This document shows, piece by piece, positions 17,279 through 21,442 of a stretch of 38,218 nucleotides of DNA (position 1 is its first letter; each line of letters starts with the position of its first letter). Under the pieces are notes generated by a model. That model was not told where the DNA came from and did no database searches. It saw nothing but the letters and a program-made list of their open reading frames with translations. The translations under genes were made by a program, and so were the position numbers. The DNA lies in assembly GCA_020433455.1 (NCBI GenBank), contig JAGRCP010000065.1, positions 1 to 38,218 on the forward strand, read 5' to 3'. Source of the DNA: Caldilineaceae bacterium (lineage in GTDB: Bacteria; Chloroflexota; Anaerolineae; Caldilineales; Caldilineaceae).

Positions 17279-17308
17279 TTGACACGCCCCGCGTGTATGT
17301 GCTATTCT
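17279..17308 (+). promoter_or_regulatory. Promoter of the ABC exporter leader
   Basis: Perfect -35 TTGACA (17279-17284), an 18-nt spacer and TATTCT (17303-17308) as -10. Transcription would begin near 17315, giving a leader of about 370 nt before the first exporter gene. An AT-rich stretch with a CA-rich repeat (17202-17222) lies upstream. Confidence 0.7.
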
Positions 17309-17364
17309 GGCTTCGTTTGAAAGTAAATTGAAGCCGTTGCGAAATCGATTAACAACTTAACGGC
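17309..17364 (+). promoter_or_regulatory. Two mutually exclusive 5' leader stems
   Basis: GGCTTC (17309-17314) can pair with GAAGCC (17330-17335). GCCGTT (17333-17338) can pair with AACGGC (17359-17364). The two share 17333-17335, so only one forms at a time. A T-rich stretch follows (17369-17394). Confidence 0.4.
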
Positions 17365-17417
17365 AGCCTTTTACCATTTATTTTTTACACTTTTAGCCGT
17401 ACAGGAAAGGGCGCACA

Positions 17418-17507
17418 ATGAAGATGATTCCTGTTATGCCCGTAATCCGTACCTCTAAGGGCGGATTCGCAGCTTATCAAGGGAGTAGTGCGCCTGCTGT
17501 CGATTAG
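17418..17507 (+). CDS. Leader peptide 1 of the exporter attenuator (29 codons)
   Basis: Short ORF reading MKMIPVMPVIRTSKGGFAAY, then QGSSAPAVD and TAG. AGGAAAGG (17403-17410) stands 7 nt before ATG 17418. It is the first ORF of the transcript from the promoter at 17279. Its codons 23-26 contain the 5' strand of the antiterminator (17485-17493), and its stop lies in the loop of the adjoining hairpin. A translating ribosome therefore occupies exactly the RNA that would prevent termination. No homologue is recognised; the peptide is inferred to act through ribosome position, as in other leader peptides. Coding status needs experiment. Confidence 0.65.
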   Translation: MKMIPVMPVIRTSKGGFAAYQGSSAPAVD

Positions 17508-17547
17508 ACAATCCAGCAGATAGACGATTACGGTCGCAGCGCACTAC
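17485..17547 (+). promoter_or_regulatory. Antiterminator stem with stacked hairpin
   Basis: GTAGTGCGC (17485-17493) is perfectly complementary to GCGCACTAC (17539-17547). Directly inside it, CTGCTG (17494-17499) pairs with CAGCAG (17514-17519). The 3' strand overlaps the 5' arm of terminator 1 (17533-17542), so the two structures exclude one another. The 5' strand can alternatively pair with 17409-17416, just before the leader start codon. Confidence 0.7.
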
Positions 17548-17569
17548 AAACGGCGTCTGCGGCTTTTTT
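17533..17569 (+). terminator. Terminator 1 in the ABC exporter leader (attenuator)
   Basis: GTCGCAG (17533-17539) pairs with CTGCGGC (17557-17563), 7 bp with one G-U. An inner CGC/GCG (17540-17542 with 17553-17555) extends the stem. T6 follows at 17564-17569. A standard intrinsic terminator about 120 nt ahead of the exporter start. Confidence 0.82.
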
Positions 17570-17578
17570 GATTGGAAA

Positions 17579-17610
17579 AGCGCGACAAGGAGGAATCTCT
17601 TTGCCGCGCT
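17579..17610 (+). promoter_or_regulatory. Hairpin sequestering the Shine-Dalgarno of leader ORF 2
   Basis: AGCGCG (17579-17584) pairs with CGCGCT (17605-17610). After one mismatch, CAAGGAG (17586-17592) pairs with CTCTTTG (17597-17603), one G-U, leaving loop GAAT. The near-perfect Shine-Dalgarno AAGGAGG and the TTG start codon are both inside the stem. Confidence 0.65.
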
Positions 17611-17669
17611 GCCAAAGAAAAACGTGGACGCCGGAAGATAAAGTCCGGTGGTCACGTTTTTTTTATTGA
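17601..17669 (+). CDS. Leader ORF 2 overlapping terminator 2 (22 codons)
   Basis: TTG 17601 lies 7 nt after AAGGAGG (17587-17593), the best Shine-Dalgarno in the leader. The ORF encodes MPRCQRKTWTPEDKVRWSRF, then FY and TGA. It runs through the whole of terminator 2, so translating ribosomes would block that hairpin. It is out of frame with the exporter gene, which starts 19 nt after its stop. The coding claim rests on the Shine-Dalgarno, spacing and placement; no homologue is known to me. Confidence 0.5.
   Translation: MPRCQRKTWTPEDKVRWSRFFY
17621..17664 (+). terminator. Terminator 2 in the ABC exporter leader
   Basis: A 15-position stem (17621-17635 with 17644-17658) having one mismatch and two G-U pairs, 8-nt loop, then T8 (17657-17664, its first two bases in the stem). 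It ends 24 nt before the exporter start codon, so it should stop transcription before the genes unless prevented. Confidence 0.85.
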
Positions 17670-17688: not shown

Positions 17689-19527
17689 ATGGCAGTTATG
17701 GCAGTAAACCAACATCAACAACATGAAAAACAGATCAAGCAGGCAGCGCAGCATAACCGCCTGCAAGGGCTGTGGCGGCTCATGGGCGGCTTTCGGGGCG
17801 AGTATGCAGGCGCGGTAGCAAGCCTGGCGCTGGCAACCGGCGCCCGCACGCTCACCTTCCTGCTGCTGGCCTGGTTTATCGATACGTACCTGGTCGCGGA
17901 TGAGAAGCCCATTGCGTTGTACCTTATTGCGCTGGGCTTTGTCGGTCTGGCCGTAATCCAGGGCGTTTTTACGTTCTACAGCGGCAAGCTGGCCGCAAGC
18001 ACATCGGAAGGCATCGTCCAGCGGCTGCGCAACTATATGCTCAACCACATCCAGCGCCTGACCTTCGCCTATCACGATACTACCTCTACCGGCGAGTTGA
18101 TCCAGCGGGCCACATCGGATATCGACGCCATCCGCCGCTTCTTTGCCGAACAGGCGATTGAGACGGGCCGCATCATCATGCTCTTCGTGGTTAATCTGGC
18201 TGCGATCATGCTCATCGACGTGCAGCTTGCCCTCATCTCGGTGGCCGTGATTCCGGTGGTGCTGGTCCTGTCCTTCTTCTTCTTTCGCAAAGTGTCAGAC
18301 GTTTATGAACGGTATCAGGAGCAGGAAGCGATTCTCTCCAGCGCGCTGCAGGAAAATCTGAGCGGCGTGCGGGTGGTCAAGGCCTTCGCGCGCCAGCCCT
18401 ATGAAGAAGAGCGATTCGGGGAAATAAACGGCGAAATGTATCGCCGGGGAAAGCGGCTGCTGCTCATGCACTCCCTCTACTGGCCCTTCTCCGACATTCT
18501 CTGCGGCTTTCAGATGCTTGCCGGGTTCACCGTGGGTGCGCTCATGGCTATCAACGGGCGCATCACCGTGGGCGAGTATCTTGCCTATGCGGGCATGATC
18601 ATCTGGATCATCTGGCCCATTCGCAACCTGGGCCGGATGATCATCCAGATGTCCACCGGCATGGTCTCCTTCGGCCGTGTCGCCCAGGTAGTACGGGAAG
18701 AGCGGGAGGATCTGGAAACGGGCGATACCGTCCTGCCGGCCCGCGTGAAGGGCAAGATCGAATACCGGGATGCGGGCTTCACCTATACCGGTACAGAGCA
18801 ACCGGTGTTGACGGATATCAGCTTCACCGCCCGGCCGGGTCAACGCATCGCCCTGCTGGGCGCGACGGGCGCGGGCAAAACGTCGCTCATTAACCTGCTG
18901 CCGCGCTTCTACAACTACACCAGCGGCGAGATTCTGCTGGACGACGTGCCGCTGACAAGCTACTCGCGCAGCACGCTGCGCCACCTCATCGGCATTGTGG
19001 AGCAGGAGCCGTTCCTCTTCTCGCGCACGGTGCGGGACAACATCACCTACGGCGTAGGACGCACCGTGTCGCAAGCTGAAGTGGAGGAAGCGGCCCGCTT
19101 CGCCGCCATCCACGAGGTCATCGTCAACAAGTTCCCGGACGGCTATGACACGCTGGTAGGCGAGCGGGGCACAACCCTATCGGGCGGTCAGAAGCAGCGG
19201 GTGGCCATCGCCCGGACGTTGCTCAAGGATCCCCGCATCCTCATCCTGGACGATTCTACATCGGCTGTGGATACGGAGACCGAGGCGCTCATCCGCACCG
19301 CGCTGGAAGCGCTCATGGCGGGACGAACCACCTTTATCATCGCCCACCGCATCCAGAGCCTCATGAGTGCAGACCTGATCCTGGTCATGAAGGAGGGGCG
19401 CATCGTGCAACGGGGAACCCATGCCGAACTGGTGAACCAGCCGGGCATGTATCGGAATATCTACGCAGCGCAAACGCGCATGGAAACCGAACTCGAGGAG
19501 GAACTAACTCGTGTCCGAACAGTATGA
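17689..19527 (+). CDS. ABC exporter half-transporter, degenerate-site subunit
   Basis: Membrane exporter half of the multidrug type (TMD-NBD, 612 residues), probably pairing with the next gene product. About six TM helices occupy residues 40-320. The ATPase domain has Walker A GATGAGKT (391-398), canonical signature LSGGQ (497-501), Walker B ILILDD with D522 in place of the catalytic Glu, and the H-loop His (H553). The missing Glu here, together with the non-canonical signature of the partner, is the known pattern of heterodimeric exporters with one degenerate ATP site (BmrCD, LmrCD, TM287/288). GAGG (17678-17681) is 7 nt before ATG 17689. Expression is likely gated by the leader upstream. 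Substrate is unknown; drugs or lipids are possible. Confidence 0.93.
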   Translation: MAVMAVNQHQQHEKQIKQAAQHNRLQGLWRLMGGFRGEYAGAVASLALATGARTLTFLLLAWFIDTYLVADEKPIALYLIALGFVGLAVIQGVFTFYSGKLAASTSEGIVQRLRNYMLNHIQRLTFAYHDTTSTGELIQRATSDIDAIRRFFAEQAIETGRIIMLFVVNLAAIMLIDVQLALISVAVIPVVLVLSFFFFRKVSDVYERYQEQEAILSSALQENLSGVRVVKAFARQPYEEERFGEINGEMYRRGKRLLLMHSLYWPFSDILCGFQMLAGFTVGALMAINGRITVGEYLAYAGMIIWIIWPIRNLGRMIIQMSTGMVSFGRVAQVVREEREDLETGDTVLPARVKGKIEYRDAGFTYTGTEQPVLTDISFTARPGQRIALLGATGAGKTSLINLLPRFYNYTSGEILLDDVPLTSYSRSTLRHLIGIVEQEPFLFSRTVRDNITYGVGRTVSQAEVEEAARFAAIHEVIVNKFPDGYDTLVGERGTTLSGGQKQRVAIARTLLKDPRILILDDSTSAVDTETEALIRTALEALMAGRTTFIIAHRIQSLMSADLILVMKEGRIVQRGTHAELVNQPGMYRNIYAAQTRMETELEEELTRVRTV

Positions 19528-21442
19528 ACAATTTGAGGAAGAGGAATTCGAGACCCAATTCAACGGCGCAACCATCAGGCGGATTGTCGGCCAGCTCAAG
19601 CCCTATTGGGTTCAGACGCTGATCTTTTTGACGCTGGTGGCCGTCGTCTCGTTTCTCGATTCTTACTTCACCTTTCTCAGCAAGCGCATTATCGACGAGG
19701 GCATCGTCGCCGGAAACGTGACGGCCCTGCGCAGCATCGTGATTCAGTACGGCGCGCTCATCGTGATCCAGGCCGCGGCGGTCTTCGGCTTTATCTATCT
19801 GACCGGCATTCTGGGCCATAAAGTGCGCTATGATCTGCGCAAGGCCATGTTCAACAAGCTCCAGCAGCTTTCTCTGGGTTATTACAACCGCACGCCTGTG
19901 GGCTGGATTATCTCGCGCGTCACGTCTGATACGGACCGGGTCGCTGAACTGGTTACCTGGGGCATGCTCGATGTGACCTGGGGCATCTTCAATATCGGCA
20001 CCGCGCTGATCTTCATGTGGATGATCAGCCCCCAGCTCACCATAATCGTCGCCGTCATCCTGCCGATCATCGTGGCGGTGGCGCTGGAATTCAAGAAGCG
20101 CATCATCATTCAGTATCGCAATGTGCGCCGCATCAACTCCCAGATTACCGGTCACTACAACGAGACCATTACCGGCGTACGGGTCATCAAGGCCCTGCGG
20201 CGGGAAGAAGCAAATCTGGACGAATTTGAAACGCTCTCGGGCGACATGTATGCTGCCGGTTATCGCGCGGCGTGGCTTTCCGCACTCTTCCTGCCGACGG
20301 TCCAGATTCTGGCCGCCCTGGCAGTGGGCGCGGTCATCTGGTACGGCGGCCTGCGTGCACAGGTAGGCGGCATCACCATCGGCGGCATTCAGGCCTTTAT
20401 CTCCTATATCACCTTCATGCTCTGGCCCATCCAGGAGGTAGCGCGGGTCTATGCCGGCATGCAGCAGGCGATTGCATCCGGTGAGCGCATCTATTCGCTC
20501 CTGGACTCGGAGCCGGAAATTGTGGATAAGCCCGACGCTTATGCGCCCGAGCATATGCGGGGAGATCTGGTTTTCGACCACGTGGACTTCTTCTACGAGG
20601 AAGGCAAACCGGTGCTAAGCGACTTTAACCTCAACGTGGCGGAAGGCGAGACCATCGCGCTGGTGGGGCCCACGGGCGGCGGCAAGTCCACCATCGTCAA
20701 CCTCATCGCCCGCTTCTATGAGCCCAAGCGCGGCCGCATCACCATCGGCGGCGAGGATTACACCCGCTTTACCCAGCGCGCTATCCAGTCGCGGATCGGC
20801 ATGGTGCTCCAGACGCCCCATCTCTTCTCGGGCACGATCCGGGAGAACCTGCGCTACGGTCGGCTGGATGCCACGGATCAGGCCATGGAGGAGGCGGCCA
20901 AGCTGGTGGGCGCGCACGACTTCATTAAGCGCCTGCCAAACGGCTATGATGAAGAGGTGGGCGAAGGCGGCAATCTGCTCTCCGTAGGGCAAAAGCAGCT
21001 CATCAGCCTGGCCCGGGCCGTGCTGGCCCAGCCCGACATCTTCATTATGGACGAGGCGACCAGCTCAGTGGATACGCTCACGGAGGCCCTCATCCAGCAG
21101 GGCATGGAAACGCTCATGCAAGGGCGAACAAGCTTTGTCATCGCGCATCGGCTAAGCACCATCCGCAATGCGGACCGCATCCTGGTGATCGAAGACGGGC
21201 GCATTGCCGAGATCGGCAATCACCAGGAACTGCTGACGCTGGGCGGCCATTACTATCGCCTCTACACCCAGCAGTTCAAGCGTGAAGCGGCCGACAAGCT
21301 GGACATCGCTGATCGCCGCGGCGCGGAATCCCGGAACGGGCAAGAGAAGGATATCTTGCCGCCTCCCGAAAGCGATTCCCACGAGTTGGAATACGAGCAG
21401 ACGGCCCATCGTCGTTTGGCCGAAACGGAGTATGGAGACTAA
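19511..21442 (+). CDS. ABC exporter half-transporter, catalytic-site subunit
   Basis: 643-residue partner of the preceding exporter, overlapping it by 17 nt, with a GTG start at 19511 and GAGGAGG 9 nt upstream. TM helices span about residues 32-320. The ATPase domain has Walker A GPTGGGKS (386-393), signature LSVGQ (490-494, non-canonical V), and Walker B IFIMDEATSSVD with the catalytic E515 intact, plus H546. Combining this Walker A/B with the partner's LSGGQ gives the functional ATP site. An acidic N-terminus (1-18) and a C-terminal tail of about 50 residues lie outside the folded domains. Translational coupling through the overlap suggests equal synthesis of both subunits. Confidence 0.94.
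   Translation: MSEQYEQFEEEEFETQFNGATIRRIVGQLKPYWVQTLIFLTLVAVVSFLDSYFTFLSKRIIDEGIVAGNVTALRSIVIQYGALIVIQAAAVFGFIYLTGILGHKVRYDLRKAMFNKLQQLSLGYYNRTPVGWIISRVTSDTDRVAELVTWGMLDVTWGIFNIGTALIFMWMISPQLTIIVAVILPIIVAVALEFKKRIIIQYRNVRRINSQITGHYNETITGVRVIKALRREEANLDEFETLSGDMYAAGYRAAWLSALFLPTVQILAALAVGAVIWYGGLRAQVGGITIGGIQAFISYITFMLWPIQEVARVYAGMQQAIASGERIYSLLDSEPEIVDKPDAYAPEHMRGDLVFDHVDFFYEEGKPVLSDFNLNVAEGETIALVGPTGGGKSTIVNLIARFYEPKRGRITIGGEDYTRFTQRAIQSRIGMVLQTPHLFSGTIRENLRYGRLDATDQAMEEAAKLVGAHDFIKRLPNGYDEEVGEGGNLLSVGQKQLISLARAVLAQPDIFIMDEATSSVDTLTEALIQQGMETLMQGRTSFVIAHRLSTIRNADRILVIEDGRIAEIGNHQELLTLGGHYYRLYTQQFKREAADKLDIADRRGAESRNGQEKDILPPPESDSHELEYEQTAHRRLAETEYGD

Follow-up and report, generated by a model that had tools for sequence, protein, structure and literature searches.

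The window, i.e., the whole stretch of 38,218 nucleotides analysed here (Caldilineaceae bacterium, assembly GCA_020433455.1, contig JAGRCP010000065.1), carries two ABC exporter genes preceded by a promoter, a very short ORF and two intrinsic terminators. This arrangement raises the question of whether translation of the short ORF decides on the transcription of the exporter genes and, if so, which signal the ribosome could report.

The leader and its competing pairings

The features of the locus are the following:

17279..17308, + strand: sigma-70-type promoter, TTGACA and TATTCT spaced by 18 nucleotides, with an extended TG (pattern scan)
17402..17409, + strand: Shine-Dalgarno region of the leader, AGGAAAGG (direct reading)
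17409..17416, + strand: strand A, GGGCGCAC, anti-antiterminator partner of strand C (8 bp with 17488-17495)
17419..17508, + strand: leader ORF of 29 codons, MKMIPVMPVIRTSKGGFAAYQGSSAPAVD (direct reading; homologous leaders at 101 loci)
17484..17494, + strand: strand C, AGTAGTGCGCC, the switch strand near the 3' end of the leader ORF (conserved at the RNA level)
17533..17563, + strand: intrinsic terminator T1, a stem-loop with arms 17533-17539 and 17557-17563 (sequence; double changes in relatives)
17539..17547, + strand: strand B, inside T1, antiterminator partner of strand C (9 bp with 17485-17493)
17551..17561, + strand: segment of the T1 loop and 3' arm able to pair with the 5' arm of T2 (17623-17633; 11 bp)
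17564..17569, + strand: T6 tail of T1 (direct reading)
17580..17609, + strand: stable hairpin between T1 and T2 (folding)
17620..17664, + strand: T2, the second intrinsic terminator, including its T tail (hairpin of -21.1 kcal/mol)
17689..19527, + strand: ABC exporter half-transporter 1, catalytic Glu replaced by D (LILDDSTSAVD)
19511..21442, + strand: ABC exporter half-transporter 2, with a degenerate LSVGQ signature and the Walker B motif FIMDEATSSVD

T1 lies 3' of the leader stop codon, and T2 (about 17620-17659) just 5' of the exporter start at 17689. Strand A is located between the ribosome-binding site of the leader and its start codon, and its 8-bp pairing with C (17409-17416 with 17488-17495) includes one G-U; the 9-bp pairing of C with B (17485-17493 with 17539-17547) is perfect. 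An earlier note, made from the letters of this DNA, had described the promoter, the 29-codon ORF, these two pairings and T1 with its six Ts, and we found all of them where it had placed them. As to the genes themselves, the two half-transporters show degenerate sites, as heterodimeric exporters do, and the solved relatives of the first one include TM_0288 and the YheH/YheI (BmrCD) chains.

Our main reading, to which we give a probability of about 0.85, is that the window's leader is a ribosome-mediated transcription attenuator and belongs to a module shared class-wide. Its anatomy, conservation, covariation and gene context are observed, whereas the transcription, the stalling, its inducer and a relay at T2 are what we infer. 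A ribosome would translate the 29-codon ORF during transcription of the leader by RNA polymerase. When it proceeds to the stop codon, it would cover C, B would remain part of the T1 5' arm, and transcription would end at about 17569. If the ribosome is stalled or slowed early in the ORF, C would be left free to pair with B, T1 would be blocked and the polymerase would read on; the T1 3' arm thus freed could in turn bind the T2 5' arm and delay this second terminator, allowing the exporter genes to be transcribed. Strand A would act on C as an early and transient anti-antiterminator.

The fold of 17315-17570 is unexceptional (z = -1.46), and the case for the leader element therefore rests on comparison. 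With T2 included, the 375-nt fold reaches z = -4.4, and the pattern scan is expected to return 1.9 terminator-like sites per shuffle. Taken alone, the features of the window do not decisively beat chance.

Stepwise folding of the growing transcript bears on the role of the ribosome. When no ribosome is present, the first pairing to form is A:C (0.92-0.93 up to 17510); once B has been transcribed, C:B reaches 0.99 and T1 about 0. With a ribosome over 17404-17445, C:B stands at 0.96-0.99 and T1 at 0-0.02 until the end of T1, and when C is covered, T1 forms at 0.91. These models, together with the covariation described below, agree with two propositions of the earlier note, i.e., that full translation covers C and lets T1 form, and that an early-stalled ribosome frees C for B and suppresses T1; a translation-dependent switch is thus supported by modelling. 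Its proposition that the untranslated leader terminates is not supported by the folds: the pairing of A with C does form first, but C:B then takes over. Since the equilibrium fold favours C:B without a ribosome, the untranslated state may read through, and termination without translation would hold only if A:C were kinetically trapped. Folding without a ribosome also predicts a pairing between the surroundings of strand A (AGCCGU...GGGCGC; window 17390-17563) and the T1 3' arm, which may be due to chance or represent an extra antiterminating interaction.

Conservation and compensatory change among relatives

When the family of the window was searched at the DNA level with the window's leader, only the leader itself was recovered; conservation was therefore sought via the exporter, and then with a covariance model. 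The family of the window and GTDB genomes both yielded orthologues of the first exporter gene, and the relatives from GTDB are mostly Chloroflexi/Anaerolineae/Ardenticatenales MAGs. Among orthologues whose proteins are about 56-73% identical to the window's, most have a homologous leader: a promoter is followed by a short ORF, at the end of which lies a near-constant RGTGCGYC strand, and then by a terminator with the complement of this strand in its 5' arm or its loop. For the covariance model R1, eight of these leaders were aligned by their switch strand and T1; the model matched 18 of the 46 genomes of the window's family (E ≤ 0.05) and 91 of 396 sampled genomes of its class, i.e., about a quarter (E ≤ 0.001). 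Drawing 400 genomes phylum-wide gave 27 matching ones, 26 of which belong to the window's class. The leader set comprises 101 loci with a start codon and a Shine-Dalgarno sequence; weak R1 matches without a clear leader (L081, L083, L084, L085 and L125) were left out. Of 99 homologous leaders, 65 have a promoter scoring at least 10/12 upstream, compared with 1.9 expected from shuffles, and an ORF with a Shine-Dalgarno sequence and a start codon is found between promoter and structural gene, as in known attenuators. In the Rfam covariance-model search of the window at gathering score, the leader was unmatched and the sole match was a tRNA elsewhere; a permissive Rfam search with five loci gave no leader family and two sub-threshold matches, both in locus L057.

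L057 (3790-5752), on a contig of 50 kb assigned to a Spirochaetales bin, combines a leader with an exporter pair, the first protein of which shares 56% identity with that of the window. Of 198 genomes of that phylum, R1 matched only the one carrying L057 and one other, and the presence of this locus in such a bin would reflect horizontal transfer or misbinning. In another class of the window's phylum, the ABC-F-like gene of L126 (1351-1600, genome G675) stands downstream of a C-like strand and a terminator, and the nearest ORF with a Shine-Dalgarno sequence ends 5' of the C-like strand. L195 (1331-1700), from the Spirochaetota genome G817, has a leader ORF (MIAIRLSFAGNVKSDVSLRKERCAC) and a terminator, also before an ABC-F-like gene; its leader could be a distant relative or a case of convergence. 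Within the window's family, genus g7 has a sister group of leaders (L076, 1341-1590; L078; L079; L080) before two-domain GNAT-like genes. Their peptide reads MLR-x-SF-x-GI-x-x-L-F-x-RP-x-x-AIG and they use another switch strand, GCGCCCG, which matches a GGGCGC terminator arm, so that the logic is alike and the sequence different.

Across the leader set, the median distance from the start codon to the beginning of the modelled C region is 57 nt. Within C, Ser is encoded by AGT in 77 of 79 cases and Ala by GCG in all 91, and one reading frame (R/S-S/G-A-P/S) is used in 95 of 101 leaders, another one in 6. Because of this nearly invariant codon choice and of the six leaders in other frames, we consider that C is kept as RNA. 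The leaders are about 18-36 residues long and their N-termini differ widely. Strand A often directly follows the Shine-Dalgarno sequence in relatives (GGAGGCGCAC, then ATG), and the core of its pairing with C is present in 77 of 101 leaders; it is weak or missing in a few relatives, e.g., L067 and L086. An anti-antiterminator overlapping the start region of the leader is thus present, although in the window folding makes it only transient.

The earlier note had named the absence of compensatory change among relatives as the observation that would speak against it; such change is present in the T1 stem, in C:A and in C:B. Across 100 relatives, 99.0% of the cells of the T1 stem are paired, 7/7 pairs of the main helix have changed on both sides and double-changed cells number 148 versus 32.7 in shuffles (0/500), all of this in an alignment fitted to the tested structure and so biased towards it; sliding the partners destroys the signal. 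The duplexes that each leader forms with its own strands are stronger than permuted ones, for C:A (z = -8.1, 0/2000) as for C:B (z = -8.5, 0/2000). Moreover, covariation links column 13 of C to A (C-G 42, T-A 13) and column 6 to B (G-C, T-A and A-T), both with 0/5000 permutations. In a thinned set of 60 leaders less than 62% alike, C:A stays at z = -6.4 and C:B at z = -7.3, column 13 with A gives 2/5000, column 6 with B 0/5000, and column 6 with A loses significance; the permutation and thinning tests lessen, without abolishing, the effect of shared ancestry. The family thus has what defines an attenuator, i.e., an intrinsic terminator and an antiterminator which exclude each other, with compensatory change. 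It is this comparative evidence that lifts the leader element above chance.

The second terminator

That a stall turns the exporter on, as had also been proposed, is supported as far as the suppression of T1 is concerned; the proposal falls short further downstream, where T2 must be overcome as well. At 72 of 123 loci, T1 and the gene are separated by a second terminator-like hairpin, whose 5' arm is a far better match for the T1 3' arm of its own locus than for those of other loci (z = -13.5 over the 72 loci, -10.4 in the thinned set), and in the window this match (17551-17561 with 17623-17633) extends over 11 bp, two of them G-U. Such a match suggests a relay, the antiterminator at T1 leading to antitermination at T2, for which we see about an even chance. 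The pairing of the T1 loop with T2, tested over all loci, gave a negative result (z = +1.8), and the relay is therefore kept as a possibility only. In the stepwise fold of the window, the T1 3' arm is paired with the T2 5' arm at 0.99 until the T2 3' arm is transcribed; T2 then wins at equilibrium, so that read-through of T2 would have to be kinetic.

The alternative that survives best takes T2 for a duplicated T1 terminator which, without any relay, just tightens the off state, and we give it appreciable weight, if somewhat below even odds. It agrees with the resemblance between the 5' arms of T1 and T2 (z = 9.6), with the T1 loop alone adding nothing to the match, and with the victory of T2 at equilibrium in the window. 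On the other hand, the match reaches into the T1 loop in several exporter-type leaders, the window's among them, and in these the T2 5' arm does not reproduce that of T1; furthermore, at 45 of the 72 loci the duplex of the T1 3' arm with the T2 5' arm exceeds the T2 hairpin in strength.

Downstream genes, likely signal and known systems

The 110 proteins encoded downstream of the attenuator include 44 with ABC_membrane, at least 24 of GNAT families, 19 with ABC_tran, 5 HAD, 3 MFS, 3 ABC-2 membrane and 2 RIO proteins. Six full-length ABC-F proteins were tested, and all score above the NCBIfam cut-off for ribosomal-protection ABC-F; two other tested proteins are DrrA-like, below the cut-off of that family. 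For one MFS protein, the best match was an H+-antiporter subfamily, followed by the Mef macrolide pumps, all below cut-off. Going by annotation, this association of ABC-F ribosome protection, efflux and acetylation is consistent with the expected look of a response to translation inhibitors. Since this RNA module, whose leaders vary in their N-termini, stands before exporter, acetyltransferase, ABC-F and other resistance-type genes, the signal would most likely be the stalling of ribosomes by antibiotics. R-X-R is the classic macrolide arrest motif. It occurs in a subset of the leaders more often than expected (20 sites versus 7.9; 16 versus 5.6 in the thinned set), an enrichment that was noticed post hoc, and it is absent from the window's leader, in whose peptide no drug-arrest motif could be recognised. 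A more ambitious proposal, to which we give a little less than an even chance, is that one modular attenuator with one shared switch strand defines a class-wide antibiotic-response regulon in Anaerolineae-type Chloroflexota, acting by a relay from T1 to T2.

It is improbable that the nascent chain, and not a drug, is the sensor, the leader peptide arresting the ribosome at its conserved C-terminal R-S-A-P in the way of the RAPP/RAGP arrest peptides. Arg precedes S-A-P in 75 of the 95 in-frame leaders, and the use of CGN as well as AGR codons for it is a hint that the amino acid itself is selected; however, the AGT/GCG codon bias and the six other-frame leaders point to conservation mostly at the RNA level, leaders of about 18-36 residues are short for sensing outside the tunnel, and a ribosome halted at this motif would sit on C, so that the genes would stay off. 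A trp/his-type attenuator responding to amino-acid starvation through control codons would share the overall logic (leader ORF, antiterminator, terminator) and yet has very little likelihood, the leaders being without a run of one amino acid and widely different in their N-termini, and the genes downstream coding for exporters, GNATs and ABC-F proteins instead of biosynthetic enzymes; the category of amino-acid biosynthesis attenuators (control codons plus biosynthetic genes) was accordingly set aside for these leaders and genes. We hold it highly unlikely that the leader is a ligand-binding riboswitch or is bound by a protein, with an incidental ORF, as could be thought from the conserved RNA core (strand C and terminator) before unrelated genes: this core consists of pairing strands only, no aptamer-like fold was seen, Rfam gave no match, and C lies inside an ORF with a Shine-Dalgarno sequence and a start codon at 101 loci, in a mostly fixed frame.

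Ribosome-mediated attenuation, the reading that we prefer, has counterparts in other bacteria. In the vmlR leader of Bacillus subtilis, a uORF lies within the anti-antiterminator, and antibiotic stalling favours the antiterminator over the intrinsic terminator; the gene, vmlR, codes for an ABC-F protein, and its ribosome-binding site is hidden by a second hairpin further downstream, which is opened in the read-through RNA (PMC9226507). The Chloroflexota leaders share with vmlR the attenuation logic, a second hairpin after the terminator and, at some loci, the type of gene (ABC-F). They differ in that the second hairpin of the window is a terminator, whereas that of vmlR hides a ribosome-binding site, and in that one RNA strand, in another phylum, is shared before many unrelated genes; the likeness described here is one of logic, and Rfam has no matching family. 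The bmrB-bmrCD system, also of B. subtilis, controls a heterodimeric ABC multidrug exporter through a terminator, an antiterminator and a predicted anti-antiterminator, and requires translation of the leader (PMC4191407); the role of the anti-antiterminator was left unclear by its authors (PMC4191407). The window's leader likewise precedes a heterodimeric-type ABC exporter and follows the same three-structure logic, but its terminator comes after the leader stop codon, while that of bmrB is inside the leader coding region. For ermK and mef/mel (msrD), macrolide stalling on a short ORF is followed by antitermination (reviewed in PMC5418344); leaders, hosts and genes differ from ours, and R-X-R-like macrolide sites are found only in the leader subset mentioned above.

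In the open-access literature, we found no leader-peptide attenuator in Chloroflexi/Chloroflexota and no matching RNA motif. Hence, attenuation of the bmrB/vmlR type is known, and the lineage-wide modular family looks new and uncatalogued. So far, descriptions of antibiotic-sensing attenuators have each concerned a single gene, mainly in Firmicutes; in the present case, the same conserved RNA module stands before ABC exporters, acetyltransferases, ABC-F proteins and others across a large and mostly uncultured class. With their varied N-termini, the leaders amount to a natural collection of candidate stalling sequences, and relay antitermination could be tested on the tandem terminators. The module could also serve as a tag, any gene after the attenuator being a candidate responder to translation inhibitors, and this tag extends to HAD, RIO-kinase-like and unannotated genes, which are rarely called resistance genes.

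At L088, L089, L090, L092, L096 and L105, the attenuator precedes a gene for a small HAD-type hydrolase, which does not count among the usual resistance genes, and this hydrolase may be an unrecognised drug-modifying or detoxifying enzyme. The two RIO1 matches were assigned by eye to L134 (2145-2924) and L183 (1001-1780); a phosphotransferase-type resistance or a ribosome-linked function is possible for these proteins. Finally, at L190 (3117-4042, genome G035), an unrelated gene, solute-binding-like as judged by eye, lies between the attenuator and the exporter orthologue.
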